From a virus, in the IMG/VR virus record IMGVR_UViG_3300031841_004520, positions 59,593 through 123,592 of that record: a DNA stretch of 64,000 nucleotides; one strand, 5' to 3'. Positions within the stretch are counted from its first letter, which is position 1; the number at the start of each line of letters is the position of its first letter. The notes under the pieces are model-generated. The model had not been told where the DNA came from and searched no databases. It was given only the letters and a program-made list of their open reading frames with translations. Below are positions 20,845 through 36,294 of the stretch, piece by piece. The position numbers and the translations under genes were made by a program.

Positions 20845-21801
20845 TTATACTATTGGTATCTCAGTTTGGATATTGGGAAAATCTTTTAAAAACTCTTCAG
20901 GGTTATTGAAATTATCTTCTAATGGCTGTTCTTTAGACTGCTTAATTGTTACATGATCTATTTCTTCTGGTTTTATTTTTATATTTATTCCGTTTTGATC
21001 ATAGACTTCCTGAAGGTATTCCAGTTTATTTTTCTGTGCGTGTAACACTTCATAATTTATTATGCACTTAGGTCCATCGAAGTTGTTATATATTTCAGCA
21101 ATTTTTTCTTGAGCGTTTTTTATCTGATTAAATTTACCTAAATATGCTTCTTTATTCCACGTAATCTTTAGCTTTTTGCATTCTTGTATTCTGTTCATAT
21201 TTTTTTCGTTAGTGTCAATATACCACACATTATTTAGGTTTCCTTTAACTTCGCTAATATGCGTCAACAAAGCACTTTTCCTGTGTGGTATTATTAAAGC
21301 ATTGCAGTGTTTTAGTATTTTGTTTATATCTATATTATTATTCATCCTGTCTGTTTCTTCTAAAGATGTTTGACCTAGGAAAACTTTTACTATTGTATTT
21401 TTATTCACAGTTTTGTTTAAAAACTTTACACTTACTCCATACAATTCTTCGTTAGATGGTTCGATAAATCTTTCCATCTCTTCGATAAGTTCCTGTATAG
21501 GTACTGAGTGATATTCACGAACTAAGCTTGATAAATTCCTAAGTAAAAACTCCTGATGTGCATCAAGCCATCCCGCATACTTATATATATAATTGCTTTT
21601 GTGAGCAGCCATTAACTGTACAACTTTTGTTTTTATGTACATATTCCAAAAGATATGATTGAAAAATTCACCCAAACAAAACCATTCTTTAAAATTTGAA
21701 CGAATTGTTGACAGTATGAAATTTGTACCAACTCTACCACAAGCTGACAACATGATAGCATTTGTCTTGTTACAGCTTGGAGAAGTGTTCTTTGATTTCA
21801 T
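20845..21801 (-). CDS. Sulfotransferase-like P-loop protein
   Basis: 318 residues from the ATG at 21801 (AAAGG 8 nt upstream). It opens with AIMLSACGRVGTNFILSTIRS, the position and shape of the PAPS 5'-phosphosulfate loop of carbohydrate sulfotransferases. Further on, ALIIPHRKSALLTH could serve as the 3'-phosphate site. It would transfer sulfate to a sugar made by the neighbouring glycosyltransferases. Similarity is by motif only. It overlaps the upstream GT gene by 32 bp. Confidence 0.6.
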   Translation of the reverse strand: MKSKNTSPSCNKTNAIMLSACGRVGTNFILSTIRSNFKEWFCLGEFFNHIFWNMYIKTKVVQLMAAHKSNYIYKYAGWLDAHQEFLLRNLSSLVREYHSVPIQELIEEMERFIEPSNEELYGVSVKFLNKTVNKNTIVKVFLGQTSLEETDRMNNNIDINKILKHCNALIIPHRKSALLTHISEVKGNLNNVWYIDTNEKNMNRIQECKKLKITWNKEAYLGKFNQIKNAQEKIAEIYNNFDGPKCIINYEVLHAQKNKLEYLQEVYDQNGINIKIKPEEIDHVTIKQSKEQPLEDNFNNPEEFLKDFPNIQTEIPIV

Positions 21802-22612
21802 CAAATTTACCTTTATTATTCAGTTTATACAGCCCGTTGCTATCCATTTCCAGATCTTTAATATCAAAATCATGAGTAAGTATTTTTTCTCTAGAATTAT
21901 ATCCTCTATATTTGTAGTCTCCGTGATATAAATGCTCTACGACACCTTTACAATAGCCAACATCTACGCCAGAAGATTTGTCTAAATTTTGATAATAATT
22001 TAAAAAATCTTGTATCAAATTATTAGGCATTGCGAATATCTTGTAATTAACAATATCGCCTAACCAAGCATATAATTGTAAGCCATCATTACTACCCATA
22101 ATATGTTTATCATAAAAGCCGTTTGGTAAAAGTGATCTGCGACATCCCCAGGATAGTCCAACAGCCAAGCTGCGTCCTATAGGTTCATTATGATGTATGT
22201 AAGAGTGTAGTAGTTTGGCATAAGAAAAGCAGTTGAGATTATGATTAAAATGATTGTCTAGCTCTACCACTCTTTCAAACGGTTGACCAAAACACTTTTC
22301 ATCTAATAATTTATCTAATTCCGTAAGCCAATCGTCATTATGAAATACTACATCTGTATCTACCCATACAATTTTATCTACACTATCAGGCAAAGTTTCT
22401 AAAGCTATATTGAAACATCTTTCCTTTTGCCATAAAAAATTTTCAGGCTTAGCTACAATTTGTATAGCATCATCTATAAAAAAATGAGATGCGTCTGTAG
22501 CTAATTCTACTGTAATTAGATCATGGGCAAAGTTTTTTCTAAATTTCTCATAGTTAGATTTTCTAACAGGATTATTATTATAATTAAAATATGAGCATAT
22601 TGCCTTAATCAT
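21770..22612 (-). CDS. GT-A glycosyltransferase, paralogue A of a three-copy family
   Basis: 280 residues. The ATG at 22612 was chosen because the protein then aligns with its two paralogues at 33999-34844 and 35479-36294 (IxSYFNxxNxxxR start). WVDTDVVF (83-90) gives a clean DxD metal motif, WQKERCFNI precedes it, and VEHLYHGD near the C-terminus provides a likely metal-binding His. Predicted nucleotide-sugar transferase; donor and acceptor unknown. Confidence 0.75.
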   Translation of the reverse strand: MIKAICSYFNYNNNPVRKSNYEKFRKNFAHDLITVELATDASHFFIDDAIQIVAKPENFLWQKERCFNIALETLPDSVDKIVWVDTDVVFHNDDWLTELDKLLDEKCFGQPFERVVELDNHFNHNLNCFSYAKLLHSYIHHNEPIGRSLAVGLSWGCRRSLLPNGFYDKHIMGSNDGLQLYAWLGDIVNYKIFAMPNNLIQDFLNYYQNLDKSSGVDVGYCKGVVEHLYHGDYKYRGYNSREKILTHDFDIKDLEMDSNGLYKLNNKGKFDEIKEHFSKL

Positions 22613-23033
22613 TGAAGTCATGTTCCTGTATACGTTTTTCTATATCAAGATTAAATGCAACCGACTTAACTAAGTTAATGTTGAAGTCTCCATCTTCGTT
22701 AGAGTCGCACACATGCGGATTGTATGTGGTAGTCCTAATAAAATTTACGATCATTTTTAGTAGCCGTTCTTTTTGTTGATGTGCATAGGCTATCTCTTCA
22801 AAAAGGAAAGCTAAAAATTTGTGTATGTCTGTTGTTTTGCAGGGTAGCATGCCCATATTTATACCGTAGCATACCCAATGAAAATACAGTCTTTCTTTTT
22901 CTGTCACGCTATGTTCTTTACAATAAGGTTGATAAAAATCAGAAACCTCAGGGTATTGTTCTGAGTATGTAACTTCATCAAAAAATTGATTACATTTATT
23001 CTTTTTATAAAAATCTTTTAGTGTTATTTCCAT
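22605..23033 (-). CDS. Unknown protein with a polysaccharide-type 'FDxxxYxxxYPxV' domain
   Basis: 142 residues. The first half, FFDEVTYSEQYPEV...YFHWVCYGINMGM, resembles the short 'Fd..yYl..yPdv...Hy..yG...gr' module found in polysaccharide-biosynthesis proteins. The rest is helical. It is coupled to the GT downstream (8 bp) and the methyltransferase upstream. A small targeting or accessory role to a glycosyltransferase is plausible but unproven. Confidence 0.5.
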   Translation of the reverse strand: MEITLKDFYKKNKCNQFFDEVTYSEQYPEVSDFYQPYCKEHSVTEKERLYFHWVCYGINMGMLPCKTTDIHKFLAFLFEEIAYAHQQKERLLKMIVNFIRTTTYNPHVCDSNEDGDFNINLVKSVAFNLDIEKRIQEHDFND

Positions 23034-23036
23034 AAT

Positions 23037-23675
23037 TTAATTTTTGTAGGCAAAAAACCTATGAAAAGGACAGTCCATAATACCAATAATTCTGTCCATC
23101 AATAACTGCTCAGTAATATCTACCAAAATATTACTATTACATACATCAACAACTCCTTGATATACATCTTGGTTTCCAGGTATATCATCAATAACAACTA
23201 TGGTGTCAGTATGAGCGAATTTTTTACAATCATGGACATCTTGAATTAAATCGTCTGTACTATGACCTCCATCAATATGAATTAAATCATATTTTTGTGT
23301 CGGAATATGTTTTTTTATAGTGGTATGACTGTTACCAGCAGTAAATATGCAGTCATAATTCTGTGCTAAATAATCGCAACTACCCTTGGTATAAGGATGG
23401 CTAAATAAATCAAAACCTAGTACTTTTAATTTTGGATTAGCGTACAAACACAAGCCTACAGAATGTCCTCCATTAATTCCTACTTGAACTAAACTTTCAG
23501 AAACTCTAGACAAATTGTATAAATTGTTTCTTAGTGAATACTTCTCTGTATCTAAAACAAAATGGCTGGCATGATTGTATAGGCAATTTCCCTCAAAGTC
23601 AGGCAAATATGGTTTTACAGATTTATTTAAGTTTTTGACTATTTCAGAATCAAGAAATTCGTTGTCATTAAGCAT
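23037..23675 (-). CDS. Class I SAM methyltransferase (Methyltransf_24-like)
   Basis: 212 residues. VQVGINGGHSVGLCL is the SAM-binding loop, VLGFDLF the acidic strand end, and YDLIHIDGGHSTDDLIQDV followed by IVVIDDIPG the family-typical pair of aspartates. The family often methylates sugars or small acceptors. It lies in the glycan operon between GT-like genes (8-bp overlap upstream), so sugar O-methylation is the likely job. Confidence 0.8.
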   Translation of the reverse strand: MLNDNEFLDSEIVKNLNKSVKPYLPDFEGNCLYNHASHFVLDTEKYSLRNNLYNLSRVSESLVQVGINGGHSVGLCLYANPKLKVLGFDLFSHPYTKGSCDYLAQNYDCIFTAGNSHTTIKKHIPTQKYDLIHIDGGHSTDDLIQDVHDCKKFAHTDTIVVIDDIPGNQDVYQGVVDVCNSNILVDITEQLLMDRIIGIMDCPFHRFFAYKN

Positions 23676-24423
23676 TAATTATTTCCTTTGCCATTTCTAA
23701 TCTATATTGATTAATTTGATTGTGTGTGTAACCAAGCCTCTCTGCTCTTTTCCACGATGTGCCGTGACCTAAATGATATATTTCCATATTAGGAAAATCT
23801 TTTTCTTCCGGATCGTAGTGCCTACAGATCTTGGTATGATGTCTTGAAATATTAAATACTTTCATTACATCAGAAAGTGTGTTTTGATGATATACAGCTT
23901 CAAGAAAGTCTTGATCTCCAAAACATCTCCTGTTTCTTTCTTCATAATGTTTCTTGCACCAATTAACAATATTATTTTTTTGTGCAATTAAGAATAAGAT
24001 ATATTTCTCCCAACCATGACTGTCTGCAGAGGCAAAGCATGAACAACATTCGTCTCTCCAATATAATTTACTATCTATCTTGTGATCAAATCTAAATCTT
24101 TTATTTATTACATCATAATCAGATATAAAAGAAGGTTCTTGTATTGTGTGGAAAGCAGCTATTTCTCTTTGTGCAGCCAACCAATATCTATGAACTGGAT
24201 TTTTTTGTTTTAGTCCTGCACCTCCCCTAACTTCTATATGTACTTCTTGCACTAAGTCCATATATTGATTAAATAGTGATGATTTTTTGGCATCATCAAT
24301 AGACAAAATGATAGGATCAAAACCTTGCTTTTTCCAGCTCTCTTCCCACACACCTAGCAAGCTCTCATGCATTTCTTGATCTGGATCATTTAGATTTTCA
24401 TAATATGTATATATTTTTGTCAT
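23668..24423 (-). CDS. Probable glycosyltransferase, GT-A-like
   Basis: 251 residues. MTKIYTYYENL and FISDYDVINKRF give a GT-A-type start and a DYDV stretch in the place of the DxD motif. Later CFGDQDFLEAVYHQ resembles the acceptor-side 'DQ..l' of glycan transferases. No exact family is recognised. It overlaps its upstream gene by 4 bp. Confidence 0.55.
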   Translation of the reverse strand: MTKIYTYYENLNDPDQEMHESLLGVWEESWKKQGFDPIILSIDDAKKSSLFNQYMDLVQEVHIEVRGGAGLKQKNPVHRYWLAAQREIAAFHTIQEPSFISDYDVINKRFRFDHKIDSKLYWRDECCSCFASADSHGWEKYILFLIAQKNNIVNWCKKHYEERNRRCFGDQDFLEAVYHQNTLSDVMKVFNISRHHTKICRHYDPEEKDFPNMEIYHLGHGTSWKRAERLGYTHNQINQYRLEMAKEIINA

Positions 24424-25613
24424 AGCGTATTGATTTCACAAGGGACATCAAAAATTTTACTAATCCAATAAACAAAACCAGACCCCCAATCATACACACT
24501 GTAAGATATATTACTTTTGCTTTCAGAAAGAATCTTTACATCTAAAGCTGTGTGTAATAATTTTTCATCTTCTATGTCTTGATTTTGAAAATCAGTAAAA
24601 GTAAGGGTAGAAGGAGCATAGGATGTATGAGTGCTCTTTTCGTGTATAATGTGTATCTTTTTGCTCTTGTTGACCTTCTTAAAGTATGCTTTTAAATCAT
24701 TGCAGTCCGACATAATGATTAGATTTTTACACTTACTATCTTTCAAATATTTTTTTGCCATTTTGTAGTATTCACTATAGTCATGATCAAAAGATTTGTA
24801 ATTAGGATTTTCTTTAATATACTCTGGCAAATCAGATATTTGCTCGTCTAAGTGAGATACGCTTTTTCTGTCGCCTAGCCTAAAGTGTAAAACATGATAG
24901 TCTTTTATATTAAGTGTTTGATAAAGATTTTCTACATCTTTATGAAAGTAAATATGAAATTTAAAATATCTTTTGCATTTATCTGTTAGGTTGTAGTTTT
25001 GTAAGAAACATCTAGCATTTCTGTCATAGTGCGGCACAATTAGAACATCATGATAAAATGAAGATATTGCTAGATCTTTTGAACTACTTATGGTCTCGTT
25101 AAGTATCTTTTTCATGTGCATAGACCAATTTTGGGAACCTCTATTGGATTCTGCTTCTACTTCTAAATCTATGGGCTCTGATTGCGTTTCAGGGGCTGTG
25201 GTTAAAATAAACTTACCGATAGGGTGCTGTTTAAAATCAAGGGTTACAGAGGCTTGTGTGTGATGACACAAGTTTTCAAATAGATGCACAGAACCTCTGA
25301 GAAAATCCCCTATACCACCACTAAATCTCTTAGTGTAGCAATTAGTTACACTTTTTAAATTTGATACATTTACAGGATATATACTAGACAGCTCAAAATG
25401 AGATAAGTCATGATCATCTCTATATAGTTGTAAAATAAAATTATACAAGATATCCATATGATGTCTTTGTGTAATCACCAATATGGATTTTACCAACCAT
25501 TCATCTAACTGAGACTTATCTTTGCAATAGTCATACTGTAAAAAGTATTCAGCAAAAGTTACTAAGTCTCCAGTATTAACAAAGTCATTAAGTATCTCTT
25601 TAGGTTCGGCCAT
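24420..25613 (-). CDS. Fucosyltransferase-like GT-B protein
   Basis: 397 residues. SGGIGDFLRGSVHLFENL (98-115) resembles the glycine-rich N-terminal start of GT11-type enzymes. HVLHFRLGDR (240-249) carries the HxRxGD-type motif I that binds GDP-fucose phosphate in fucosyltransferase families GT11, GT23 and GT65. It overlaps the epimerase gene, whose product is a GDP-hexose, so a GDP-linked donor would be available. The assignment rests on motif and context, and the rest of the protein is divergent. Confidence 0.6.
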   Translation of the reverse strand: MAEPKEILNDFVNTGDLVTFAEYFLQYDYCKDKSQLDEWLVKSILVITQRHHMDILYNFILQLYRDDHDLSHFELSSIYPVNVSNLKSVTNCYTKRFSGGIGDFLRGSVHLFENLCHHTQASVTLDFKQHPIGKFILTTAPETQSEPIDLEVEAESNRGSQNWSMHMKKILNETISSSKDLAISSFYHDVLIVPHYDRNARCFLQNYNLTDKCKRYFKFHIYFHKDVENLYQTLNIKDYHVLHFRLGDRKSVSHLDEQISDLPEYIKENPNYKSFDHDYSEYYKMAKKYLKDSKCKNLIIMSDCNDLKAYFKKVNKSKKIHIIHEKSTHTSYAPSTLTFTDFQNQDIEDEKLLHTALDVKILSESKSNISYSVYDWGSGFVYWISKIFDVPCEINTL

Positions 25614-26574
25614 TTTGTTCCTGTATCCATTTATATGTCTTCTCTAATCCATTATAAAGTGTCATAGAGGGTTGCCAACCTAATTCTTTTTGTAAAAGTC
25701 TATTATCAGAATTTCTACCATTAACACCCACGGGACCATCTACATTTTTGTATTTAACATTCTTGCCAGACAATTTAATAATCATTTCTGCAAACTGATT
25801 GATGCTCACCATTTCTTCACTACCAATATTAACTGGTCCAGCAAAATCTGATCGTGTTAATCTTAATGTGCCTTCTATACACTCATCAATATATAGGAAT
25901 GATCTTGTTTGCTTACCCGTTCCCCAAATTTCAATAGTATCTCCTTCTTCTGCCCTAATAACTTTTCTACACAATGCAGCAGGAGCTTTCTCTTTGCCTC
26001 CATCCCAAGTGCCTTCTGGCCCAAAGATATTATGATACCTAGCTATGCTTACGTCTAATCCATGATTTCTTTGTAATGCTAAATAAAATCTTTCACTAAA
26101 TAGTTTTTCCCATCCATATTCACTATCTGGTGCGGCTGGATATGCAGAATCTTCGCTACATTTTGGGTTGTCTGGATCTTCTTGATTATATGCTGGATAC
26201 ATGCAGGCACTGCTGCTATAGAACAGCTTACCGACTTTTTTGCTAACAGCTATTGAGCCTATATTAAGATTAATTTGTGCAGAATTATGCATGATACCCG
26301 CATCGTTCTCTCCAGTGAAAATATATCCTGCTCCACCCATATCTGCTGCTAGTTGATAAACTTCGTCAAACACTTCTCCATTAGGTAAAGACATTACTCT
26401 TTCAGCATTTCTAAAATTACACAAATCTCCTAGTGCAAAATCATCAGCTTCTGTTGTAGAGAAATCTGGTATCTTTAGATCCGCACCTCTAACCCAGTAT
26501 CCATCTGCCTTTAATCTTTTAACAAGATGCGATCCTATGAATCCACCGGCTCCACACACTAATGCTGTTTTCAT
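25600..26574 (-). CDS. gme: GDP-mannose 3,5-epimerase-like
   Basis: 324 residues. An extended SDR with NAD loop GAGGFIGSH (8-16) and YGWEK (153-157). Its sequence follows plant GME closely: LAADMGGAGYI, YSSSACMYP with the epimerising Cys (124), GTWDGGKEKAPAA with the Lys (196), TRSFLYIDECIEGTLRLTRSDF, VNIGSEEMVS and NGRNSDNRL. Expected to turn GDP-D-mannose into GDP-L-galactose or GDP-L-gulose. Both key catalytic residues known from the family are present. It overlaps genes on both sides and is the central sugar-nucleotide enzyme of the block. Confidence 0.88.
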   Translation of the reverse strand: MKTALVCGAGGFIGSHLVKRLKADGYWVRGADLKIPDFSTTEADDFALGDLCNFRNAERVMSLPNGEVFDEVYQLAADMGGAGYIFTGENDAGIMHNSAQINLNIGSIAVSKKVGKLFYSSSACMYPAYNQEDPDNPKCSEDSAYPAAPDSEYGWEKLFSERFYLALQRNHGLDVSIARYHNIFGPEGTWDGGKEKAPAALCRKVIRAEEGDTIEIWGTGKQTRSFLYIDECIEGTLRLTRSDFAGPVNIGSEEMVSINQFAEMIIKLSGKNVKYKNVDGPVGVNGRNSDNRLLQKELGWQPSMTLYNGLEKTYKWIQEQNGRT

Positions 26575-27527
26575 CTAGCTTGCCTCTTTTTTTCTATTTC
26601 TTTTTGTAACATAGATAAGAATTGATTATTTAATTGTCTTATGTTGTCTAGCTGCCAATTAACCACACTTTCGTAGTAATCGATATTTTTTTCTAGCTCT
26701 TCTATTTTGTCTTGTACACAAGTTATATTATTACAAATCATGTCTGGGTGCAAGAAATGACTATTATCATTAGCGGTTTGTCCTATACACACTGTGTTTA
26801 ATGAGCTTGCGTCATGGAAAAATTGACCATGTCTTTGACTAATACATATTGCATATTTAGATTTTGATAAATTGCTATAATATTGTTTCGATTCACCCTC
26901 TATAATATTAGTAGGACAATAATATGAAGTATTTTTTACTGGAGAATTATTGTTGTTTGGCATATCTAACATATATTCGTCTTTATCTCTATTGTCTAAA
27001 AAGTACCCATGCTTGTTTGTAACATTAAACATTTTTTGCATAGCTTCTATATCTCTAGGAAAAGTAAAGAACTTTTCATTAATATGTCTTTGCTGTTGAT
27101 GATTAATATGTTGCAAAAATACGTCGTAGTCTTGACTATATTTAGCATCAAAATGCTCAGCATTAAAATATAAAAATAGAGTATTGGGGTATCTATCAAT
27201 AATATTTTTTTGTATTATTGCATCTTCTGATATTACTACATCATATTGACCAAAATCTACATCATCAATATTCACTGTATTTTGTGTGTGTTGCTTTACG
27301 GTGTCGAACAAATGAGAAATCTCTCTCATCCAGGGCATAGCAATAGTTTCATTAATTATTGCACAGTCCATTTGTAACAATAATATCATTTGCAAAGGAT
27401 GTCCAGCTTTAGCATAAAATTTTGAAAGTATAAATTCTGGACTAACATCATTAAACTTAAATGATGACCACGGGCCACCTATGTGTATTTTTTGCTTAAC
27501 ATACAGACTTTTCACAACATGCCCCAA
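26571..27527 (-). CDS. Unknown, possibly GT-B glycosyltransferase
   Basis: 318 residues. IHIGGPWSS, YDVVISEDAIIQ, TLFLYFNAEHFD and YAICISQRHGQFFHDASSLNTVCIG have the strand spacing of a GT-B protein with a donor-site end, but no diagnostic motif. The C-terminus is a charged helix. It is flanked and overlapped by the epimerase and the UDP-sugar dehydrogenase, so it is part of the same sugar pathway. Confidence 0.5.
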   Translation of the reverse strand: MGHVVKSLYVKQKIHIGGPWSSFKFNDVSPEFILSKFYAKAGHPLQMILLLQMDCAIINETIAMPWMREISHLFDTVKQHTQNTVNIDDVDFGQYDVVISEDAIIQKNIIDRYPNTLFLYFNAEHFDAKYSQDYDVFLQHINHQQQRHINEKFFTFPRDIEAMQKMFNVTNKHGYFLDNRDKDEYMLDMPNNNNSPVKNTSYYCPTNIIEGESKQYYSNLSKSKYAICISQRHGQFFHDASSLNTVCIGQTANDNSHFLHPDMICNNITCVQDKIEELEKNIDYYESVVNWQLDNIRQLNNQFLSMLQKEIEKKRQAR

Positions 27528-28717
27528 GGATCAACGACTTTTTTATTATAAAAATTTAATCCAGCAAATCTTTTATCTGGATGCATAATTATTATGCAAT
27601 CACTTTTATTAATTAGGTCTTCTGGCGTTTGTTCCATAAAAATATTTAAATTTTCAGATGTTTGCACTATGTAATCAAATACCCGCACTTGTTTTTGTAT
27701 TCTTTTTAGAAGTGATACAGATGGCGACCCTATGGTAACTGGTGAGTCAGGTTTAAAAGATAAACCAAGAATGCCTATGTTTTGATATTTATCACACTCT
27801 TTAGCTATACTATTTAAAACCATATCGTTAACTTCTTGTGCAAATATTAGATTTTTAGCTATATGATTCCTGTCTTTAGCGAATTTTACAAAAGCGGTGG
27901 CATCTCTGGGAAAACAGGTACCTCCATATGGAGCACCCGCGCCAAAAAACTTATTACCAATTCTTTGGTCCATACCTACAACATTAGTAATATTATGGAC
28001 ATTGACATTTGGCAAGCCTTTACAAAGCTCTCCTAAAAAATTAGCAAAAGTAATTTTACTTACTATATATGCATTTAAAGCAACCTTAGCTATTTCAGTT
28101 TCTTCTAAGGTTAAAGATTCATGACTACAATTGTTTTGGTGCATTTTAGACCAAACTTTATGTACAGTTTCTAAATCTCTAACATTATTAGATCCGACTA
28201 GGAAAAAGTCTGGATTTTTAAAATCTTTAATAACGCTGCCTAATTTTACAAAATCAGGTACATACGCAAAGCCAAAATCATCCTCAAATTTTTTACCAGA
28301 AATTTTCTCTATGTCAGATATTAATTTTTTAATACTACCAGGTAAAACAGTTGAAGATAGAACTATGGTATGATACGGCTTTTCTATCTTTTTCAAGTTT
28401 ACAGCTATATCAGACATAGCAGCTTCTACAAAATCAGCAGCATAGCCATCATCTCCCAACTGTGTATTAACTAAAATTATAGATACGTCTGTCTCTTTAA
28501 TTGCCTGTTCATATGAGTCTGTAAATTTTAAAAATCTATGCTTGCAGCTATTAAACAATTCTTCAAGACCCGGTTCATAAAATGGAAGCTGTCCATTTTT
28601 TAAACTATCTAATATATATTCGTTTTTATCAACAGCAACTATACTATTCCCTATTTCTGCTAAACAGCTTGCCAAAGGTAGTCCTAGTTTTCCCAAACCT
28701 ATAAAACTTATATTCAT
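27512..28717 (-). CDS. UDP-glucose/GDP-mannose dehydrogenase family protein
   Basis: 401 residues. NAD-binding MNISFIGLGKLGLPLA, SSTVLPGS, the catalytic-domain helix with ETEIAKVALNAYIVSKITFANFLGE (Lys 211, Asn 215) and the active-site GAPYGGTCFPRD (Cys 268) are all intact. The C-terminal domain has GLSFKPDSP, matching 'GlaFKpdTdD'. It oxidises an NDP-hexose at C6 to an NDP-uronic acid. The FAYVPDFVKLGSVIKDF segment departs slightly from the usual NPEFLREG, so the substrate may not be UDP-glucose. Confidence 0.9.
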   Translation of the reverse strand: MNISFIGLGKLGLPLASCLAEIGNSIVAVDKNEYILDSLKNGQLPFYEPGLEELFNSCKHRFLKFTDSYEQAIKETDVSIILVNTQLGDDGYAADFVEAAMSDIAVNLKKIEKPYHTIVLSSTVLPGSIKKLISDIEKISGKKFEDDFGFAYVPDFVKLGSVIKDFKNPDFFLVGSNNVRDLETVHKVWSKMHQNNCSHESLTLEETEIAKVALNAYIVSKITFANFLGELCKGLPNVNVHNITNVVGMDQRIGNKFFGAGAPYGGTCFPRDATAFVKFAKDRNHIAKNLIFAQEVNDMVLNSIAKECDKYQNIGILGLSFKPDSPVTIGSPSVSLLKRIQKQVRVFDYIVQTSENLNIFMEQTPEDLINKSDCIIIMHPDKRFAGLNFYNKKVVDPWGML

Positions 28718-29754
28718 TGTAATACCTGTAATATTTTTTTGGTTAGATCTAAAGGTCCTATAGATACCCTAAAACAATTTTGCAATCCCTCCAAGTAACT
28801 CCTATCTCTGACTAAAATTTTATTTTCTGCTAAAACCTTTAGTGTATTTTTAATATTATCGGTTTTAACAATTATAAAGTTTCCGTAACCCTTTAGTGTT
28901 TGGTACGATGTGTTTAAATTATCATAAAAATATTGCTTAGACAATTCCGTTTGCTCAACACATGAGTTCAAATAATCAATATCAGACAATGCAGCTATTC
29001 CAGCAAGTTGAGCAATTGAGTTTACACTTTTGCCATTTTTAATTTTTTGTAAAGATTTTATATTTTCTTTATTAGATATAATATATCCTAGTCTAAATGA
29101 AGCTAAGCCAAATGCCTTAGAGAAAGTTCTTGTCACAACAATATTAGAAAATTGTTTTGTTAATTGCACACAACTTGTTTTACAAAACTCATAATAGGCT
29201 TCATCTATAATAAATAGAGTATTTGGATTATCTTTTAGTAAACTTTCAATAACAGATATGGGTATCAAATGTCCAGTTGGATTATTAGGATTAACTATAT
29301 ATACAACATTATGCTTTGAGCATTCTTCAAAGTCGTATTCATGTTTATCAAAAATATTATTTATTAAAGAGCTTGTGTGGTTGGCTGTATTAATATCAAT
29401 AAAGGTATCTACCTGAGTATATGATGGTGCATAGGTCAGAACACTGGTGCTTTCATCTACAAACACAGAAAATATGTCTTTTAAAGCATCGTCAGATCCA
29501 TTGTATACCTCAATATTTTCTTTTGGAACATCAACATACTCAGATATTTTGCTTTTAAGTTGTTGTTGTGTGATATCAGGATATAGTCTAAAATTAATTT
29601 GTTTGGTTAAACTGTCAAAAACTTCTGTTACCTTGGCACTAGGAGCAAACAAAGACTCGTTCCAATCACAAAGAGTCCACGACTTATCTAAAGTAAATCT
29701 ATTAGATGTAACATATGGTTTAATTGTTGCCAAATGTTTATTGTGCTTAATCAT
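28714..29754 (-). CDS. HisC-like PLP aminotransferase (class I/II)
   Basis: 346 residues. NPNNPTG (155-161), IIDEAYYEF (182-190) and the PLP lysine in TFSKAFGLASFRLG (Lys 213) are clear. Overall it is closest in style to histidinol-phosphate aminotransferase and its CobD relatives. A phage has little use for histidine synthesis, so it probably makes an amino sugar, amino acid or amino alcohol for the glycan. It is ATGA-coupled to the dehydrogenase and the CapK gene. Confidence 0.85.
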   Translation of the reverse strand: MIKHNKHLATIKPYVTSNRFTLDKSWTLCDWNESLFAPSAKVTEVFDSLTKQINFRLYPDITQQQLKSKISEYVDVPKENIEVYNGSDDALKDIFSVFVDESTSVLTYAPSYTQVDTFIDINTANHTSSLINNIFDKHEYDFEECSKHNVVYIVNPNNPTGHLIPISVIESLLKDNPNTLFIIDEAYYEFCKTSCVQLTKQFSNIVVTRTFSKAFGLASFRLGYIISNKENIKSLQKIKNGKSVNSIAQLAGIAALSDIDYLNSCVEQTELSKQYFYDNLNTSYQTLKGYGNFIIVKTDNIKNTLKVLAENKILVRDRSYLEGLQNCFRVSIGPLDLTKKILQVLQ

Positions 29755-31082
29755 TTTTCTGTAAAGATGTTTCTTATTTTACCTGTTTCAGTACTTCTTT
29801 TAATTTCATCAACTATTGCAATATTCAGTGGTAGCGAACCTACTCTGCTAGACATACCTTTTCTAATTTCGGTTTCCGTTTTTTCGCAAAATTTCTCATT
29901 CTTAACAATATTCATTGTAAGACTACGGTCTGCTTTTTGAAAAATTTGGAACATTTTAACACCATCTATCTTATACATCATAGTGTAAAAGTTAACCCCT
30001 GGCAATCTACAACCATCTTTAGATATTAGTATATCGTCACATCTACCATCTATATCTAACATAGTGTAACATGTGCTTTTGTCATTGTTTATGATTCCTA
30101 CATCGTTTGTTTTATATCTAAGAAAAGGCATATAGTAATTATTAAACCCTGTACCAACTATTACATTTTGATCATTTTCTTGCACAAATTCAGTAATACC
30201 ATATTCAAAATTTTCATAATAGTGGTCCGACTCACTAGTTTGATGATGAAACACAACTTTTTCTTGTAGTCCATAGTGCGCTTTGGGTTTGATGCCAAAA
30301 GCCTTATATATTTTGTTAGACCATTCTTCTAACATTTTTTCTGAGGCTACATGTATTTGCGATATGTTTAATGATAAATTATGGTCTTCACATAAACATG
30401 CTAGTATGTAAATGCTAGACGGATACCCAACCAGTGTGTGATAATTTCCTGCATTTATTTTTTTTACATAATCATGTACAGTCTTATCATTAACATGATA
30501 TGCTGACATGTATAGTCTTCTTAATTCATAGTCATAATTCCATAACATATTTTCTTTAGGGGGCACAAATCTACGCAGCCAAACACTAGGCTTGTCGTAC
30601 ATTGTTGCTCCATGGTCATTAAAAGCCCTTAGTACAAAAGCGGCTTCTTTTTTGTATAAATCATCAGTGCCATAAAAAATTAATTTTTTACCTGTTGATC
30701 CACTAGTTCTAAATTCAAAACATTTTTGTCCAATCATATTAGAAGCAATAAGATCTTTTGTATTATCTCTAATAATATCTTTTGTAAGTATTGGCAGTAA
30801 AGAGATATCAGAAGCAGATTTGAATGATTGTGGACAAAGCCCACGGTCTAACATCACATTTTTATAGTAAGGCACATTATTGTAGCAGTGTGTAATGAGT
30901 TTCTTGAACTCTAAATATTGATAGTCTAATAATTGTTGTTTGTTCCATGTTCTAGATGTCATTAAGTTTTGAAAAGTTTCTACAAAAATCTTACCATACC
31001 TACGATTGAAAGGCACGCAATTGTAGTATGCTCTTTTTAGAAAACCAGGACAAACTTTAATTATTTTGTTTACACTACCCAT
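29751..31082 (-). CDS. CapK/PaaK-like adenylate-forming enzyme
   Basis: 443 residues from the ATG at 31082, chosen because it overlaps the HAD stop by 8 bp. FEFRTSGSTGKKLIFYGT is the phosphate-binding loop of the phenylacetate-CoA ligase/CapK family. Further on, AHYGLQEKVVFHHQ and RYKTNDVGIINND resemble the late adenylate motifs. Relatives in capsule clusters activate carboxylates or attach them to polysaccharides. With the dehydrogenase and aminotransferase it could form an amide or amine decoration on a uronic acid; that is inference. Confidence 0.8.
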   Translation of the reverse strand: MGSVNKIIKVCPGFLKRAYYNCVPFNRRYGKIFVETFQNLMTSRTWNKQQLLDYQYLEFKKLITHCYNNVPYYKNVMLDRGLCPQSFKSASDISLLPILTKDIIRDNTKDLIASNMIGQKCFEFRTSGSTGKKLIFYGTDDLYKKEAAFVLRAFNDHGATMYDKPSVWLRRFVPPKENMLWNYDYELRRLYMSAYHVNDKTVHDYVKKINAGNYHTLVGYPSSIYILACLCEDHNLSLNISQIHVASEKMLEEWSNKIYKAFGIKPKAHYGLQEKVVFHHQTSESDHYYENFEYGITEFVQENDQNVIVGTGFNNYYMPFLRYKTNDVGIINNDKSTCYTMLDIDGRCDDILISKDGCRLPGVNFYTMMYKIDGVKMFQIFQKADRSLTMNIVKNEKFCEKTETEIRKGMSSRVGSLPLNIAIVDEIKRSTETGKIRNIFTEK

Positions 31083-31413
31083 TATGAAAAAAGTCTTCGC
31101 TGTTAATAGCTTTGTCGTCAATATAATAATCTGCCATATACTTTACTCCACTTCTCAGGTGATCAAATTTTAATCCCCAATCTTTTAGTTGATTTAACGT
31201 TTTAAAAAACCAAGACCTACCTGAATTATTACCTCTGGCTGTTTCAATGATGATTATATGTCCCTCATCATGTAATTCGTTAATTTTATTAATTCTGTCA
31301 GATATAGGCTTAGAATCAAAATACTGCGGACCACTCTTACCGTCTGGGCCCACACCCATTTCAGTTCTACATAACGTGTCGTCTAAATCTACTACATAAA
31401 TTAATCTTTTCAT
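31075..31413 (-). CDS. HAD-family phosphatase, capsule-type
   Basis: 112 residues, a minimal HAD: VVDLDDTLCRTEMG carries the DxDxT nucleophile motif, IIIIETARGNN gives motif II, and ADYYIDDKAINS the late DD pair. No cap domain, as in the small HAD proteins found in capsule and CapK-associated clusters. It probably dephosphorylates a sugar phosphate. It overlaps the CapK gene and abuts the next upstream gene. Confidence 0.8.
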   Translation of the reverse strand: MKRLIYVVDLDDTLCRTEMGVGPDGKSGPQYFDSKPISDRINKINELHDEGHIIIIETARGNNSGRSWFFKTLNQLKDWGLKFDHLRSGVKYMADYYIDDKAINSEDFFHNG

Positions 31414-32192
31414 TATAAAGGTGCTTTTACATTTACTCCTGGAAAATTTGGAATTACATGCGTTGATTGATTAAATTTTCGCATAGCTTCTACCAAAAGT
31501 CTTTCATTTTCTCTAAACTGTGGCCAGAATGAAGGTCTAGAACTTTTGTAAGGGCCTCTAACGTCTCCACCTTCTTCGTGATGTAAAGCATAAATATTTT
31601 CACTACAATCTATACTATCATAGCCTATTTGTCTTGGAAGCCATAACATACACCTATCAAAAGATCCTCTAGCTATTAAGAAATTTGGAAAGAAATTTTT
31701 AGAATTTAAATTTAAATATACGTCTTTGTGAAAACAAAAATAGTCACAATGTTCTGTGTTTCTGAATGGCAGGTCACCAGCAATTTCCATGATTTGCTCA
31801 TCAGACAAATTATTAATATCTAAATCACAATAATCTACCCAATCTCTTCTTTTGCCTACCATTTGAAAGGGCTTATCATATTTATCTTTTATATGCTTAA
31901 AAGTTTCACAAAAATCTGATAAAAATATTATATCGCTATTTACATAGCAAAGATATTGATTATCGGTTTTATCTATAGCATCTAGGAAAAGATCTTTGAT
32001 TGAAGGTGGATCTAAAGGCTTGAGTTCTTTAGGATATTTTCTAGCAACAACTTTAGGATGTTCTAAAATCTGACTAGTTTCTAAAGACGTATACACTACA
32101 ATTTCATGGACGCAATCTAGTTTTGTCCATGATAGTAGTGAGTTTTTTTCTCTATACAAGAATTGTTCTAGAGTAGTAAAGAATGTTATCAT
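31413..32192 (-). CDS. Probable GT-A-like glycosyltransferase
   Basis: 259 residues. MITFFTTLEQF, then QYLCYVNSDIIFLSDF, place an xSD/DxD-type acidic site where GT-A enzymes bind metal, and ALHHEEGGDVRGPY may be the late His-containing loop. An unusual 'DPPSIKDLFLDAI' segment precedes the acidic site. It starts with ATG overlapping the stop of the GT upstream (4 bp) and is part of the glycan operon. Confidence 0.6.
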   Translation of the reverse strand: MITFFTTLEQFLYREKNSLLSWTKLDCVHEIVVYTSLETSQILEHPKVVARKYPKELKPLDPPSIKDLFLDAIDKTDNQYLCYVNSDIIFLSDFCETFKHIKDKYDKPFQMVGKRRDWVDYCDLDINNLSDEQIMEIAGDLPFRNTEHCDYFCFHKDVYLNLNSKNFFPNFLIARGSFDRCMLWLPRQIGYDSIDCSENIYALHHEEGGDVRGPYKSSRPSFWPQFRENERLLVEAMRKFNQSTHVIPNFPGVNVKAPL

Positions 32193-33079
32193 TTTAAAAA
32201 CTTAGCTTTGCATAATGTCCTAATTTTTTCTTTTACGCCATCGTCCCATAAAAATTCCTTTACCATTTTATTATATGGCTTATAGTTTTTCCAATTTTGT
32301 GCATAGTGGTCTGCGTTGCTATGCTCTCCCCATTCTCCAATATACTGTGCATTCATAGTAAAGGTGGATATTTTAATAAAATTATTTAAGGCTAGAAAAC
32401 CACTCATAACACTATCTTGACTAGTTACTACTTTGGTTGGGTCCATGCCATATTGTTCACAGTATCCCAATATTTGTTGATGCGGCCTACCCCTATAGTC
32501 ATCTGGTAGCATAGCATAGTAACCTTCCATAAAAGGAGCCACAACATCATATGCTCTTTTAAAAAACCCATATCCCCAAATATGCTCCATTTGCATAAAT
32601 TTGTTATTATTTCTCTCTTGCTGTTTATCCCAATCGTCGTATCTTGTAAGATAGTCACAATACTTAAAAACATCTGTGTGTCTATGAATTTCACCAAAAC
32701 AACTCACCATACTGACGTCTTTATCATCCTGGAATTTATCCATTAATAAATTTAACTGTTCTAGATAATAGTCATTTAATACTATATCGTCTTCTATAAA
32801 TATAGCAGAATCTGCTCTATCAAAAATAAATTCTCTTGCTCTTTTTTGATTAAAAGCAACGCCTAAGTTGCATTCACTAGCAAAGACTTTGGATTTAGGA
32901 AAATGCTTACTAAAAACATCTACACTGTTTTTTACTTTGGGCTTATCATCCGTTAGTATTCTTGCACCATCTTGAAACAAAAAAACCTCAGCGTCCTTGA
33001 CTTGAGGCTTTAATGCTTGCAATACTTTATCTAAATAATCTGGACGATTATACGCATATACTACTATTGGTCTTGACAT
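32189..33079 (-). CDS. GNT-I-like glycosyltransferase
   Basis: 296 residues. IVVYAYNRPDYLDKVLQAL is a typical glycosyltransferase start and AIFIEDDIVLNDYYLEQL holds the EDD metal site used by GNT-I (family GT13) and related enzymes. ASECNLGVAFNQKRA matches the 'n.g.a.ar' donor-side motif. In eukaryotes GT13 adds GlcNAc to mannose, but the phage donor is unknown. It is the first gene of the glycan run below a set of membrane-protein genes. Confidence 0.75.
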   Translation of the reverse strand: MSRPIVVYAYNRPDYLDKVLQALKPQVKDAEVFLFQDGARILTDDKPKVKNSVDVFSKHFPKSKVFASECNLGVAFNQKRAREFIFDRADSAIFIEDDIVLNDYYLEQLNLLMDKFQDDKDVSMVSCFGEIHRHTDVFKYCDYLTRYDDWDKQQERNNNKFMQMEHIWGYGFFKRAYDVVAPFMEGYYAMLPDDYRGRPHQQILGYCEQYGMDPTKVVTSQDSVMSGFLALNNFIKISTFTMNAQYIGEWGEHSNADHYAQNWKNYKPYNKMVKEFLWDDGVKEKIRTLCKAKFLK

Positions 33080-33104: not shown

Positions 33105-33353
33105 TTAACTCTTGGTTAGTTTATTATAAACTAAAAGAGCAACCACGCCACCACCAATTCCCATAAAAATTCCCGCAGGCTCTAACGCACTATAAAACCC
33201 TAATAAATAAGATGCTGCTCCGCCGCAATACGATCCAGCAACACCAAGGGCTACGGTTTGAAAAAACCCTAATTTTTCTTCACCAGGAACTATACTCTTA
33301 GCAATAGACCCTACAAAAATACCATATACGCACCATATTAATAAACTAAACAT
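33105..33353 (-). CDS. GlsB/YeaQ/YmgE-family membrane protein
   Basis: 82 residues with three predicted membrane segments (about 1-20, 28-52, 58-77) and the family pattern GSIAKSIVPGEEKLGF. This transglycosylase-associated family occurs in bacterial stress genes and sometimes in phages. Its role in infection is unknown; an envelope or lysis-related role would fit the neighbours. Confidence 0.75.
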   Translation of the reverse strand: MFSLLIWCVYGIFVGSIAKSIVPGEEKLGFFQTVALGVAGSYCGGAASYLLGFYSALEPAGIFMGIGGGVVALLVYNKLTKS

Positions 33354-33732
33354 TACTTACCTCTATTAAAGAATGAACTTGTTCGTGACTCAAATCGCTT
33401 GCAGCATCCAATATTTTCTCACACAAAACACTTCCATGTTTTTTATATTCTTCCCTTGGCATATTTTTCCGTAATATTTTTTTAAGACGCATTTTGGTAT
33501 ACCATCCACGCCTTACGCTTAATGTTTTAATATGACTAGCATAAGCAGTACATTTTTGTTCAGTACTAGTCAGCATTTTGAGTTCTGTTTTATTACAGTC
33601 TTGTATGACTCTGATCAAAGTAAGAAATACCCCAATCAACATAATAACAACTATGACACTACCAAAGTTAGCCTTCGGATCTATGTCAGAATCTATAGCA
33701 ATTTTTTCTGCAATTTTTTCTAATTCATTCAT
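33346..33732 (-). CDS. Single-pass membrane protein of unknown function
   Basis: 128 residues: an acidic N-terminus, one membrane segment at about 24-44 (VIVVIMLIGVFLTLI), then a basic soluble tail. The orientation rule suggests the basic tail is inside. It overlaps the GlsB-like gene by 8 bp. Could be a holin-type or spanin-like component, but no motif supports either. Confidence 0.55.
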   Translation of the reverse strand: MNELEKIAEKIAIDSDIDPKANFGSVIVVIMLIGVFLTLIRVIQDCNKTELKMLTSTEQKCTAYASHIKTLSVRRGWYTKMRLKKILRKNMPREEYKKHGSVLCEKILDAASDLSHEQVHSLIEVSNV

Positions 33733-33736
33733 GATA

Positions 33737-34006
33737 TTACTTCGGCCTTATGTTAATATAAAATTTACCATCCCTGGCGCCAGTTTTTAAAATACCATCC
33801 GATGTTATTTGTGCTTTAGCTTCAACTGGCGGACCTCCGCCTATGACTGTAGGAGGATACCCAGCAGTATTCGTTCCAAAAACAGGGTTGTACCCTGCAG
33901 TATTGTACGCTGCAGTATTATACCCTGCAGTACTATACACTATATTGTCGTCAATATTATTTATAGTCGTTTGTAAAATTTTGTTGAATAGTTCTTTATT
34001 ACTCAT
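33737..34006 (-). CDS. Small repeat protein sharing an N-terminal module with the fibre-like protein
   Basis: 89 residues from the ATG at 34006. The start MSNKELFNKIL...DDNIVYS closely matches the start of the protein at 47874-49592 (MSSNKEIYNKIL...DDNIVFT). A pentapeptide repeat Y-N/S-T-A-G/A follows (about four copies), then a glycine/proline linker and a short beta-rich end. Probably a virion or fibre component using the common module for attachment. It lies among glycan genes, away from the other structural-type genes. Confidence 0.6.
   Translation of the reverse strand: MSNKELFNKILQTTINNIDDNIVYSTAGYNTAAYNTAGYNPVFGTNTAGYPPTVIGGGPPVEAKAQITSDGILKTGARDGKFYINIRPK
33858..33935. repeat. 15-bp tandem repeat encoding Tyr-Asn-Thr-Ala-Gly
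   Basis: Three adjacent 15-nt units (33891-33905, 33906-33920, 33921-33935) share TAC-CTGCAGTA with two or three changes. A fourth, more diverged copy lies at 33858-33872. All are in frame in the gene at 33737-34006 and encode its pentapeptide repeat. Such repeats can expand or contract by slippage. Confidence 0.75.
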
Positions 34007-34844
34007 CATCTTTTCTGTCTATAAAATATTGAGCTATGTCCTGTTTAAACTCTGGCTTGTTGGGCAGCAACTCTATAAGACCATCTGTAATTTTTATGTC
34101 TGTATATGGGTCATATTTGTGATTCTGTAGTATTTTGTTCTTTTCCCAATACTGTCTATTGTCAGTATTCCCATGATACAAATGCTCTACACTCCCTTTA
34201 ATACACCCAATTTGACCGTTGACGTTTTCATTATTGCTTAAGGCCCATAATAGGTATTTACGCCTCATTCTTGGAGGCAGAACCAATACTTGCTGATGGT
34301 CCCACAGTCCCAACCAAGCTATTAGCTGTAAAGCGTCATTGTTCCCCAACACATCGCAATCAAACAATCCACCATCTATCACATTTTTTCTCATAGCCCA
34401 ACTAAAACCTATAGCTGGCCAATCTTGTTTCTTTGTATTAAGGTAGTCTCTAGCAAAAGAAATGTTATTATGTGTGCTGTTTTCTGATTTCTCATAAACG
34501 CTTTCAAAACATTGTGCAACAGGGTAACGATTTAAAGTTTTATCTATGTCTTTTAGTATATCTTTATTATTAAAGATAATGTCACAGTCCACCCAAACCA
34601 CAATATCTGTACTATTTGGAAGACTATCAATTAATATATTTAGAAGTCTTTCTTTTTGCCAGACTATATTAGAAGTTGTTCCTTTTAGCTTTATGCTGTC
34701 TTCTATAAAAAAATCTTGATCATCAATGGTGAGTTCTGCTGTATGAATTTTATATGGAAAATGTCTACGAAACTCTATATAGTTATTCTTAATCCTATTA
34801 GAGTTTGTAAAATTGAAGTACGAAGTTATAAATGATATACTCAC
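33999..34844 (-). CDS. GT-A glycosyltransferase, paralogue B of a three-copy family
   Basis: 281 residues. It aligns end to end with the protein at 21770-22612: ITSYFNFTNSNR start, FFIEDSIKLKG, NIVWQKERLLNI, WVDCDIIF (84-91, intact DxD) and GSVEHLYHGNTDNRQY near the end. Both copies keep the metal site and the late His, so both are probably active on related substrates. It is coupled by 4 bp to the methyltransferase-like gene upstream. Confidence 0.75.
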   Translation of the reverse strand: MSISFITSYFNFTNSNRIKNNYIEFRRHFPYKIHTAELTIDDQDFFIEDSIKLKGTTSNIVWQKERLLNILIDSLPNSTDIVVWVDCDIIFNNKDILKDIDKTLNRYPVAQCFESVYEKSENSTHNNISFARDYLNTKKQDWPAIGFSWAMRKNVIDGGLFDCDVLGNNDALQLIAWLGLWDHQQVLVLPPRMRRKYLLWALSNNENVNGQIGCIKGSVEHLYHGNTDNRQYWEKNKILQNHKYDPYTDIKITDGLIELLPNKPEFKQDIAQYFIDRKDDE

Positions 34845-35482
34845 AGTTTCTTATATTCTAAAATAATCTGTGTTGGATATTCTAATATACCTAAGTTTAA
34901 GGGGTTGTCTTTACTTGATCCCAAATACTTTAGTTCTTCATCGTTGTAGTCAAGTTGTTTATTGGGCAAAATTGGCCTGAGGTTATTCGATGCATTGATA
35001 ACTTTAAATATGTTGTCTAACTGTATTCCAGGCAAACAATCATCAATTAAAATTATAGCAGAATCGTTGAGAAAATTATTTGGATGATTTAAAATAACAG
35101 TGAGTACTATATCTTTAGCTACAGCATCAATAAAAAGGAAATCATAACTACTATTGTTAGACGATATAGTAGTAAACTGACATTCATTGTGCAGTGTAGT
35201 ATACTCTGAGAGTTGCATTTCATGTAATACGCCTTTAGCCCAATTATAATTATCTTTATTAACTTCTATTGAATAAAATTCAAACCCAAATATTCTTGAA
35301 AGTTGTGCAAAAGTAACGGTGCTCCAACCCTCATTTGTCGAGTCTTTACGCATTGTGCCAAACTCTATTATTTTTTCTGGTTTTCTATCTAAGATTAATT
35401 CAATCGCATGATTAAATGAATTATATCTGCAATTACCTGCTAAAAAACCTTTTTGTTTTGGTTTGTTGTCTTCTTCCGTCAT
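34841..35482 (-). CDS. Class I SAM methyltransferase-like protein
   Basis: 213 residues. EKIIEFGTMRKDSTNEGWSTV takes the place of the SAM loop, FYSIEVNKDNYNWAK gives the acidic ribose-binding residue, and DFLFIDAVAKD with ILIDDCLPG are the following strands, as in the small sugar/cephalosporin-type methyltransferases. It lies between two GT paralogues with 4-bp overlaps, so it probably methylates the same glycan. Confidence 0.7.
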   Translation of the reverse strand: MTEEDNKPKQKGFLAGNCRYNSFNHAIELILDRKPEKIIEFGTMRKDSTNEGWSTVTFAQLSRIFGFEFYSIEVNKDNYNWAKGVLHEMQLSEYTTLHNECQFTTISSNNSSYDFLFIDAVAKDIVLTVILNHPNNFLNDSAIILIDDCLPGIQLDNIFKVINASNNLRPILPNKQLDYNDEELKYLGSSKDNPLNLGILEYPTQIILEYKKL

Positions 35483-36294
35483 AAAATATCTTTAATTTCA
35501 TTGTGCAATTCTGTTTTATCGCTAGACCATTGCCATAAACCATTACTACCTAATTCAATATCCTCACTGATATCAAACAGATGTTTGTTTAATATGTGTG
35601 TATAAATTGGACGTTGACTACTAGTGGTGGTAATTTTAATGTCATTTAAATTATTTAATTTATTTTGCACAACCATAAAGTCATCGATAGCTTTGGCTAA
35701 TAGGGGTAGGCTAATATCTTGATGGAAGTCACGACAAAAACTGTTATTCCAAGCTCCTTGCCAAGTAACAATTTGATGTAATTCATTATTGCCTACAATA
35801 GAAAAATCATACAAGCCCTTAGGCAAAGCATCTCTTCTTGCAGCCCAAGCCAAATCATACCTACCTACATTAGATATGACAGGATTATTCTTTAGACTAT
35901 ATTTTTCACCTTCCTGTTTGATTTTTGCTAGATATCCCAACTCATCATTAACATGACTAAAAAGTTGGCATATAGGATATTCGTCTAATGCCACTGTTGC
36001 CCTTTTGTACCATGACAAATCTTCAAAAATAATATTGGGATCTAACCAAGCTACTTGATCAACAGAAGACCTTAGTGATTCTACACCTATATTAATTAAT
36101 CTTTGTGGTTGCCAAAGCATATTAGATTCGTTGGCAGATATCCTAATAGAATCATCAATCCAAAAATATTGATCGGCAAAAGCAACTTCTACTACAGTTA
36201 AGGGAGCATTTAGATTATTTTTAAATTCTATAAAATCCTGTCTAACTTTGTCAGAATTATTAGGATTAAAATAGTAGCTTATACATCGTAACAT
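35479..36294 (-). CDS. Diverged GT-A paralogue C with damaged metal site
   Basis: 271 residues. It shares the family start (ISYYFNPNNSDK), FWIDDSIRIS, MLWQPQRLINIGVESL and VAWLDPNIIF with the two paralogues. Here the DxD has become D-P-N, and the late VEHLYHG segment is replaced by a different sequence. It has probably lost normal metal-dependent transfer, and may be a binding or regulatory partner, or use another mechanism. Length is kept and the frame is open, so it is not a decayed gene. Confidence 0.65.
   Translation of the reverse strand: MLRCISYYFNPNNSDKVRQDFIEFKNNLNAPLTVVEVAFADQYFWIDDSIRISANESNMLWQPQRLINIGVESLRSSVDQVAWLDPNIIFEDLSWYKRATVALDEYPICQLFSHVNDELGYLAKIKQEGEKYSLKNNPVISNVGRYDLAWAARRDALPKGLYDFSIVGNNELHQIVTWQGAWNNSFCRDFHQDISLPLLAKAIDDFMVVQNKLNNLNDIKITTTSSQRPIYTHILNKHLFDISEDIELGSNGLWQWSSDKTELHNEIKDIL

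Follow-up and report, generated by a model that had tools for sequence, protein, structure and literature searches.

The window analyzed here, a stretch of 64,000 nucleotides, consists of the last 64,000 bases of the 123,592-base IMG/VR virus record IMGVR_UViG_3300031841_004520 and carries, at positions 20845-36294, an island of genes of the type used for glycan synthesis. In related phages, one defined segment in the middle of this island is replaced by different cassettes of genes between the same two anchor genes. The island very probably has a modular structure, with an exchangeable cassette held between anchors, and such an arrangement suggests an ability of these viruses to change the sugar chain that they build. 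Genes are designated below by their lowest coordinate in the window.

A cassette is exchanged between two anchor genes

Relatives of the phage were found by scans of IMG/VR. One contig, G001, is the same virus (99.993% identity over 81.7 kb, including the cassette) and, being a near-duplicate of the record, was left out of the counts. The exchange site, termed site A, spans 26575..32188 on the minus strand and holds in this phage the type-specific genes 26571, 27512, 28714, 29751, 31075 and 31413. It lies between the epimerase gene 25600, the left anchor, and the glycosyltransferase gene 32189, the right anchor. Five different cassettes are present at this site in five phages (this one, G002, G003, G004 and G007). 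G002 and G003 are 90.5-94.9% identical to the record in all pieces of more than 500 bases, and both alignments break at 26574 and resume at 32189. Compared with each other, these two phages are 97.2% identical over 29,465 bases on the left and 97.1% identical over 4,050 bases on the right of wholly different cassettes, with a further 12,808 bases at 91.8%. A fourth member of the same chassis, PKDP01000010.1 (G007), has anchors at 93-94% identity and a fourth cassette, and the more diverged G004 (65-81% to the record) has a fifth. PKDP01000010.1 (L116) is binned in a metagenome-assembled genome (MAG) called Flavobacteriales; the name of the MAG may not be that of the host, and Flavobacteriales as host is a possible but weak hint.

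When the cassettes were compared pairwise, seven of the ten pairs gave no nucleotide match at E ≤ 1e-3 and the other three shared one match each, of 83, 25 and 24 bases, the G004 slice used having 15 excess bases on the epimerase side and about as many on the other. The borders of the exchanged segment coincide with gene ends. On the left, identity to the record begins at the ATG of the epimerase gene in the other four phages. G003 and G007 have the 25 bases preceding the epimerase start in common, and of 49 bases in this stretch 30 agree between G002 and G003, so that the left border among these three phages lies up to about 50 bases upstream of the epimerase start. On the right, four of the five phages have an ATGA formed by the stop codon of 32189 and the start codon that follows; G004 differs.

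The cassette of this phage is made up of 26571, a UDP-glucose-type dehydrogenase, a HisC-like, a PaaK-like and a HAD protein, and 31413. That of G003 encodes a HAD-like protein (by eye), an SDR protein, an HMGL-like aldolase, a cytidylyltransferase, a UPF0047 protein, an FkbM methyltransferase, a weak match to glycosyltransferase group 1 and one unknown protein; two of these genes have homologues beside 32189 in G008 (54% and 58%), so that pieces of cassettes circulate in this lineage. The G002 cassette contains genes for a class III aminotransferase, a methyltransferase, a radical SAM/SPASM protein, a cupin and two unknowns. In G004, the segment encodes Polysacc_synt_2, a PIG-L deacetylase, a glycosyltransferase of group 1, a HAD protein like 31075, a cupin, an SDR protein, a class IV aminotransferase, a cytidylyltransferase, NeuB, PhyH (weak), methyltransferases and one unknown, and in G007, where all genes were read by eye, glycosyltransferase-like and methyltransferase-like genes, an SDR protein and a fucosyltransferase-like protein. 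The large island of G012 (L102, L200) holds nearly the whole pseudaminic-type nonulosonate gene set, with PseB-, PseC-, PseF- and NeuB/PseI-like proteins below the cut-offs and PseH above its own (98.1 versus 93.1 bits). Three proteins of relatives with eye-read sialyltransferase-like motifs (L011:12291-12971, L013:13061-13756 and L014:15009-15704) had neither a Pfam match nor a PDB profile match and were rejected, as was a more doubtful candidate, L013:9208-10041, likewise without a Pfam or PDB match.

Two further positions in the island vary. At site B (23037..24426, minus strand), this phage has a methyltransferase (23037-23675) and a glycosyltransferase-like protein (23668-24423, by eye); G007 has a sulfotransferase (Sulfotransfer_2) and a methyltransferase-like gene instead, and the site B genes are missing in G004. 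The methyltransferase gene 34841, site C, is missing in G002, G003, G004 and G007.

Organization and position of the island

The island consists of 20 open reading frames (ORFs) of at least 75 amino acids (aa), lying end to end on the minus strand. Sixteen of the 19 neighbouring pairs overlap and the other three are separated by 3, 25 and 4 nt. A preliminary description, made from the letters of this DNA, had proposed about 20 consecutive minus-strand genes here, nearly all overlapping; the number, the overlaps and the coordinates all proved right. As three of the ORFs are listed with a TTG start and one with a GTG start, some of the overlaps may be shorter.

The genes on both sides belong to the chassis. 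The left border is a dCMP-deaminase-like gene (20374..20841, minus strand, by eye), with homologues in G003, G002 and G007 and in six of seven more distant relatives. On the right (36297..37671, minus strand, names by eye), a small cysteine-rich protein (36297-36569) is followed by an ORF at 36566-36748 and a papain-like protein (36745-37671); homologues of 36297 are found with 12 of 12 islands and those of 36745 in six of the seven distant relatives. In these seven, the island lies between the 36745 homologue and the dCMP-deaminase-like gene, the missing border genes being those of the fragment G013 and of G008, in which an nrdJ-like gene is the border. Judged from these gene orders, the island has one fixed position in related phages. 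Its size varies from 3.6 to 24 kb among the relatives, the islands of G002, G004 and G013 being cut by contig ends. In G004, the dCMP-deaminase-like region (about 10862-11309 of the contig) matches in more than one frame, which suggests either a broken gene or sequence errors in the contig. The 36745 homologue of G005 (L015 14665-16608) is a 647-aa ORF whose matching parts lie about 1 kb apart, with extra sequence in frame that is possibly intein-like.

Constant and variable enzymes of the island

Five of the 20 ORFs (33999, 21770, 35479, 24420 and 32189) are glycosyltransferases backed by a structure model, paralogy or a family match, and 23668, 26571 and 31413 are three further plausible ones, recognised by eye. 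The "nine or so" glycosyltransferases originally counted are too many. One of the five supported proteins is without the full metal motif. For 33999 (33999..34844, minus strand), an AlphaFold model with a mean confidence score (pLDDT) of 93.0 was compared with the PDB by Foldseek and matched 112 chains at E ≤ 1e-3; apart from one unnamed protein and three rows for nucleotidyltransferases, the 50 matches listed were all glycosyltransferases. The best VIA match had a Z of 13.1 and a root-mean-square deviation (rmsd) of 2.9 over 165 aligned residues. According to the model, 33999 has a GT-A fold. Its family is present in nine of the 12 islands, and its paralogue 21770 (21770..22621, minus strand) is 35% identical to it. 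In 37 aligned family members including these two, both Asp residues of the DxD motif are invariant. A third paralogue, 35479 (35479..36294, minus strand), was excluded from this alignment and is a degenerate GT-A protein without the second Asp (WLDPNIIF here, WFDPTIIF in G004); with a ratio of nonsynonymous to synonymous divergence (dN/dS) of 0.19 to G003 and 0.20 to G004, purifying selection on it persists.

The model of 24420 (24420..25613, minus strand; pLDDT 86.2) matched 18 PDB chains at E ≤ 1e-3, all of them FUT8, POFUT1 or plant FUT1, and the top VIA match was NodZ (Z 12.3, rmsd 4.2, 230 aligned). Unrelated GT-B-like enzymes (UDP-GlcNAc 2-epimerases and a polysialyltransferase) align over one domain with Z 9-11. 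The protein is thus modelled with a fucosyltransferase fold of the FUT8/POFUT/NodZ type, and a homologue is encoded in 11 of the 12 islands. For both 33999 and 24420, sequence profiles gave nothing meaningful against the PDB and the structure models alone gave matches. The right anchor 32189 (32189..33079, minus strand) is a GT2-like glycosyltransferase, with a Pfam Glycos_transf_2 match below the cut-off (E 2.2e-4) and homologues in six of the 12 islands. Proteins 23668, 26571 and 31413 had no meaningful Pfam match even at E up to 10 nor, as far as searched, a meaningful PHROG or NCBIfam match, and 26571 and 31413 had no meaningful match to the PDB by sequence.

The preliminary description had also placed sugar-nucleotide enzymes in the island, and two were recovered. 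The left anchor 25600 (25600..26574, minus strand) is firmly predicted to be a GDP-mannose 3,5-epimerase: the match to PDB 2c59 covers residues 6-320 with an E of 7.3e-89, and the second-best family, UDP-glucuronate decarboxylase, follows at E 1e-25. The residues of 2c59 that we take to be catalytic in GDP-mannose 3,5-epimerase, a Cys in "ssac-yp" and a Lys in "ggrekapaa", align with a Cys and a Lys in 25600. The epimerase is found in seven of the 12 islands and, among the near-full-length T4-like matches listed, is 58-66% identical to cyanophage homologues. The second enzyme, 27512 (minus strand), scores above the NCBIfam subfamily cut-off and is firmly assigned by sequence as a UDP-glucose-type nucleotide-sugar dehydrogenase. 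Three further cassette proteins of this phage, also encoded on the minus strand, are small-molecule enzymes: the HisC-like aminotransferase 28714 (NCBIfam E 1.3e-75, below the equivalog cut-off), the adenylate-forming, phenylacetate-CoA-ligase-like (PaaK-like) protein 29751 (below cut-off) and the HAD, capsule-phosphatase-like protein 31075 (weak match; phrog_1238 E 4.7e-24). No relative of 29751 was found in genome_contigs and viral_contigs gave the duplicate contig G001 only; in the phage collection it matched three of 50,697 records at 22-26% identity. HisC-like 28714 matched 21 phage records, the 15 matches listed being at 23-30%.

Both of the expected methyltransferases were confirmed, 23037 (23037-23675, minus strand) and 34841 (34841..35482, minus strand), the latter by a match to Pfam Methyltransf_24. 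The expected sulfotransferase-like protein, 20845 (20845..21804, minus strand), is putative: it was named by eye and had no Pfam, PHROG or NCBIfam support; homologues occur in five of the 12 islands. The small conserved protein 22605 (22605..23033, minus strand), without a family match, occurs in seven of the 12 islands and is related to part of larger proteins that G011 and G012 encode. A pair of small membrane-type proteins, 33105 and 33346 (33105..33732, minus strand), is present in 12 of 12 islands and serves as an island marker. Adjacent to them, 33737 (33737..34009, minus strand; five of the 12 islands) encodes a small protein with YNTAGYN-type repeats and an N-terminus like that of the fibre-like protein 47874-49592. 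None of 33105, 33346 and 33737 is a recognisable glycan enzyme. On a contig of a Deltaproteobacteria MAG (L117 3717-4007), a small ORF with a 33737-like N-terminus (by eye) overlaps the end of a 33999-type glycosyltransferase gene, an arrangement that matches that of the window.

In a hydropathy scan, the candidate enzymes of the island had no transmembrane (TM)-like segment, and 33105 and 33346 were the only island proteins to carry any. Across the 12 islands, three of which run into contig ends, none of the 197 ORFs (75 aa or longer) had more than two TM-like segments, and no flippase, polymerase, exporter, initiating transferase or multi-TM glycosyltransferase was recognisable.

Recombination and selection

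Synonymous divergence (dS) differed strongly between the genes of the island. In the comparison with G004, seven shared island genes had dS values from 1.2 up to saturation; the value was 0.49 for the epimerase gene and 0.18 and 0.15 for 33105 and 33346. Low values only in these genes point to recombination around the cassette, with a more recent exchange of its neighbours than of the genes farther away. In the comparison of this phage with G003, dS varied from 0.02 (24420) to 0.82 (33999) inside the island and was 1.35 in the nrdJ-like gene, a spread that points to a mosaic; dN/dS in the shared island genes was 0.03-0.28. The cassettes were probably exchanged between phages through homologous recombination within the anchor genes. 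No mobile element came to light, no search having been aimed at one.

The phage lineage and genes outside the island

The record is a tailed-phage genome, with a terminase, a DNA polymerase, a DnaB-like helicase, a UvsX-like recombinase and an RIIA-like protein. Ten further proteins were searched against PHROG and one, the terminase, had a match, the best being phrog_2. The terminase matched 40 of 50,697 phage records, with 22-31% identity for the best among the matches listed; 33999 matched one of these records and 24420 none. By these comparisons, no cultured phage is close to this lineage.

The DNA polymerase (phrog_405) is split into an N-terminal part at 4480-6093 and a C-terminal part at 6970-8820, with 6050-6793 in between. 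Glycan-type genes are also present outside the island: phrog_2170 glycosyltransferases are encoded at 2362 (region 1301-3996) and 50409 (50409-51482), and the gene at 1301 is related to 50409. The protein at 39664-40275 is sulfotransferase-like by eye only and gave no family match on searching. Two structural-looking genes, 47874-49592 for a Pro-rich fibre-like protein and 41844-43487, have counterparts in G003: of the former, its contig carries a second paralogue (63375-64871), and its copy of the latter has diverged; fibre-like genes thus also vary among the same phages.

A possible virion glycan and the alternatives

Our preferred reading, about which we are just short of evenly divided, is that of a cytoplasmic, K-locus-like "glycotype" island whose glycan is built on a virion surface protein. 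Cytoplasmic assembly is proposed because the enzymes appear soluble and no export machinery is recognisable in 12 islands. The constant soluble core enzymes (the GT-A proteins 33999 and 21770, 24420, the GT2-like 32189 and the epimerase 25600) would make the core of the glycan. The epimerase would supply GDP-L-galactose or GDP-L-gulose and 24420 would most likely transfer this product, as the two genes overlap and the fold is that of GDP-fucose users; the overlap suggests an L-galactose-type residue in the core. The cassette between the epimerase gene and 32189 would add the type-specific part of the chain. In this phage, this could be glucuronic acid formed via 27512, perhaps amidated with an amino-alcohol from 28714, with joining by 29751 and dephosphorylation by 31075; in the relatives, the cassettes bring nonulosonic-acid and other sugar genes, and a phage would change its glycotype by swapping the cassette. 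The amide branch resembles the HS:2 capsule pathway of C. jejuni: according to PMC11800397, a transaminase, an ATP-dependent amide ligase and a HAD phosphatase act there on glucuronate; once the glucuronate has been transferred, serinol phosphate is attached to it, and dephosphorylation follows. The analogy is one of reaction types. We infer both the acceptor of the glycan and its benefit; 33737 is a possible, speculative acceptor. Somewhat more doubtfully, the island may be a marine phage glycotype locus in which, through a constant core and a cassette swapped at fixed gene borders, virions that are otherwise nearly identical would differ in their sugar coats (glucuronate-, nonulosonate-, fucose-like or sulfated).

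That the differences between cassettes arose as artefacts of assembly, or from contaminants that the assembler joined, is hardly credible. All the genomes are metagenome contigs, the MAG that contains G007 may not be named after its host, and the near-duplicate G001 gives no independent support, although it does reproduce the cassette of this phage. However, the borders recur in four differently named contigs besides the record, flanked on either side by open reading frames, and the stop/start overlap at the right border is identical in four of the five phages. Addition of the sugars to a hypermodified base of the phage DNA, for evasion of restriction, is also very unlikely. Clusters of phage glycosyltransferases that decorate DNA are known, and the dCMP-deaminase-like gene adjoins the island. 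Against this, the 123.6-kb record, which is possibly incomplete, contains no match to PF00303 (thymidylate synthase/dCMP-hydroxymethylase), for which nine of 14 control genomes were positive. The search for a Tet/JBP hydroxylase, which matched neither the record nor any control genome, carries no weight here. To our knowledge, the variety of sugar donors and the nonulosonate-type genes have no precedent in DNA modification. Simple DNA glucosylation was rejected on the missing PF00303 match, and the initial view of a dedicated glycan is upheld by this, by the conserved glycosyltransferase core, by the island's own supply of sugar nucleotides and by the swapped cassette.

Several observations weigh against a virion glycan. 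No acceptor was found, and no observation puts the glycan on the virion. An export machinery could be borrowed from the host, and the TM calls come from a simple hydropathy scan. The modelled fold of 24420 does not prove its donor, and three glycosyltransferases (23668, 26571 and 31413) and the sulfotransferase 20845 are without family support. The main alternative is that the enzymes modify the surface of the host: acting in the cytoplasm, they would alter lipid-linked lipopolysaccharide or capsule precursors that the host then exports, competing phages could not adsorb, and the cassettes would track host surface types. Similar clusters of marine phages, in pelagimyophages and cyanophages, are read in this way in PMC7029224 and PMC9602691. 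Relatives of 33999 in bacterial contigs (L118, L120) adjoin ABC-exporter-like genes (by eye), which fits cell-surface glycans, and the NeuB, cytidylyltransferase and dehydrogenase of the cassettes are typical of bacterial surface loci. Yet the lack of recognisable flippases, polymerases, exporters and multi-TM glycosyltransferases in the 12 islands speaks against such a role, and no link between the cassettes and surface types of a host was seen; we consider modification of the host surface possible but, on the whole, doubtful.

Relation to known systems and significance

Bacterial K- and O-antigen loci have constant flanks with type-specific sugar and transferase genes between them, which are exchanged by recombination in the flanks. 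The island likewise has constant flanks and an exchangeable variable centre; unlike these loci, it is carried by a phage and has no recognisable flippase, polymerase, exporter or initiating transferase in the 12 islands. The gtr serotype-conversion cassettes of temperate phages also combine a conserved and a type-specific part, and encode membrane proteins of prophages. In contrast to the gtr membrane glycosyltransferase and flippase, the candidate enzymes described here are soluble by hydropathy, and the block measures 15 kb.

Capsid glycosylation in chloroviruses is the best precedent for a virion glycan. According to PMC5408694 and PMC7826918, PBCV-1 uses mostly soluble, virus-encoded glycosyltransferases to make a conserved glycan core with variable outer sugars on the capsid. 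Soluble enzymes and a conserved core with a variable outer part are common to both systems; the chlorovirus genes, however, are scattered and their hosts are algae, and the virion glycan is proven there while here we infer it from genes. Clusters of glycosyltransferase and sugar genes in phages, including hypervariable ones, are already known from PMC7029224 and PMC9602691. The hypervariable "host recognition cluster" of pelagimyophages and the sugar clusters of T4-like cyanophages such as S-SCSM1 are likewise marine, with clustered glycosyltransferases and a variable region, and include UDP-glucose 6-dehydrogenase or GDP-mannose 3,5-epimerase and fucosyltransferases of the NodZ and POFUT types. 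The T4-like host recognition cluster is positioned between vrlC and gp14; the island described here has other neighbours, a papain-like gene on one side and a dCMP-deaminase/nrdJ-like pair on the other, in a phage whose terminase best matches phrog_2, and one defined cassette is swapped between two fixed anchors of near-identical phages. No K-locus-like phage island with cassette replacement between fixed anchors was among the literature matches listed, which cover open-licence papers only, and one may already have been published.

Phage glycosyltransferases are usually read as modifiers of DNA or of the O-antigen. The presence of unrelated sugar pathways between two fixed genes in phages that are 97% identical on both sides of them suggests diversifying pressure on the sugar structure itself. 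These phages provide a natural allelic series for testing the role of a phage glycan, be it shielding, adsorption or exclusion, and a source of soluble enzymes for rare sugars. If the proposal is true, the island would be a viral counterpart of capsule switching, by which the coat is diversified in addition to the fibres.

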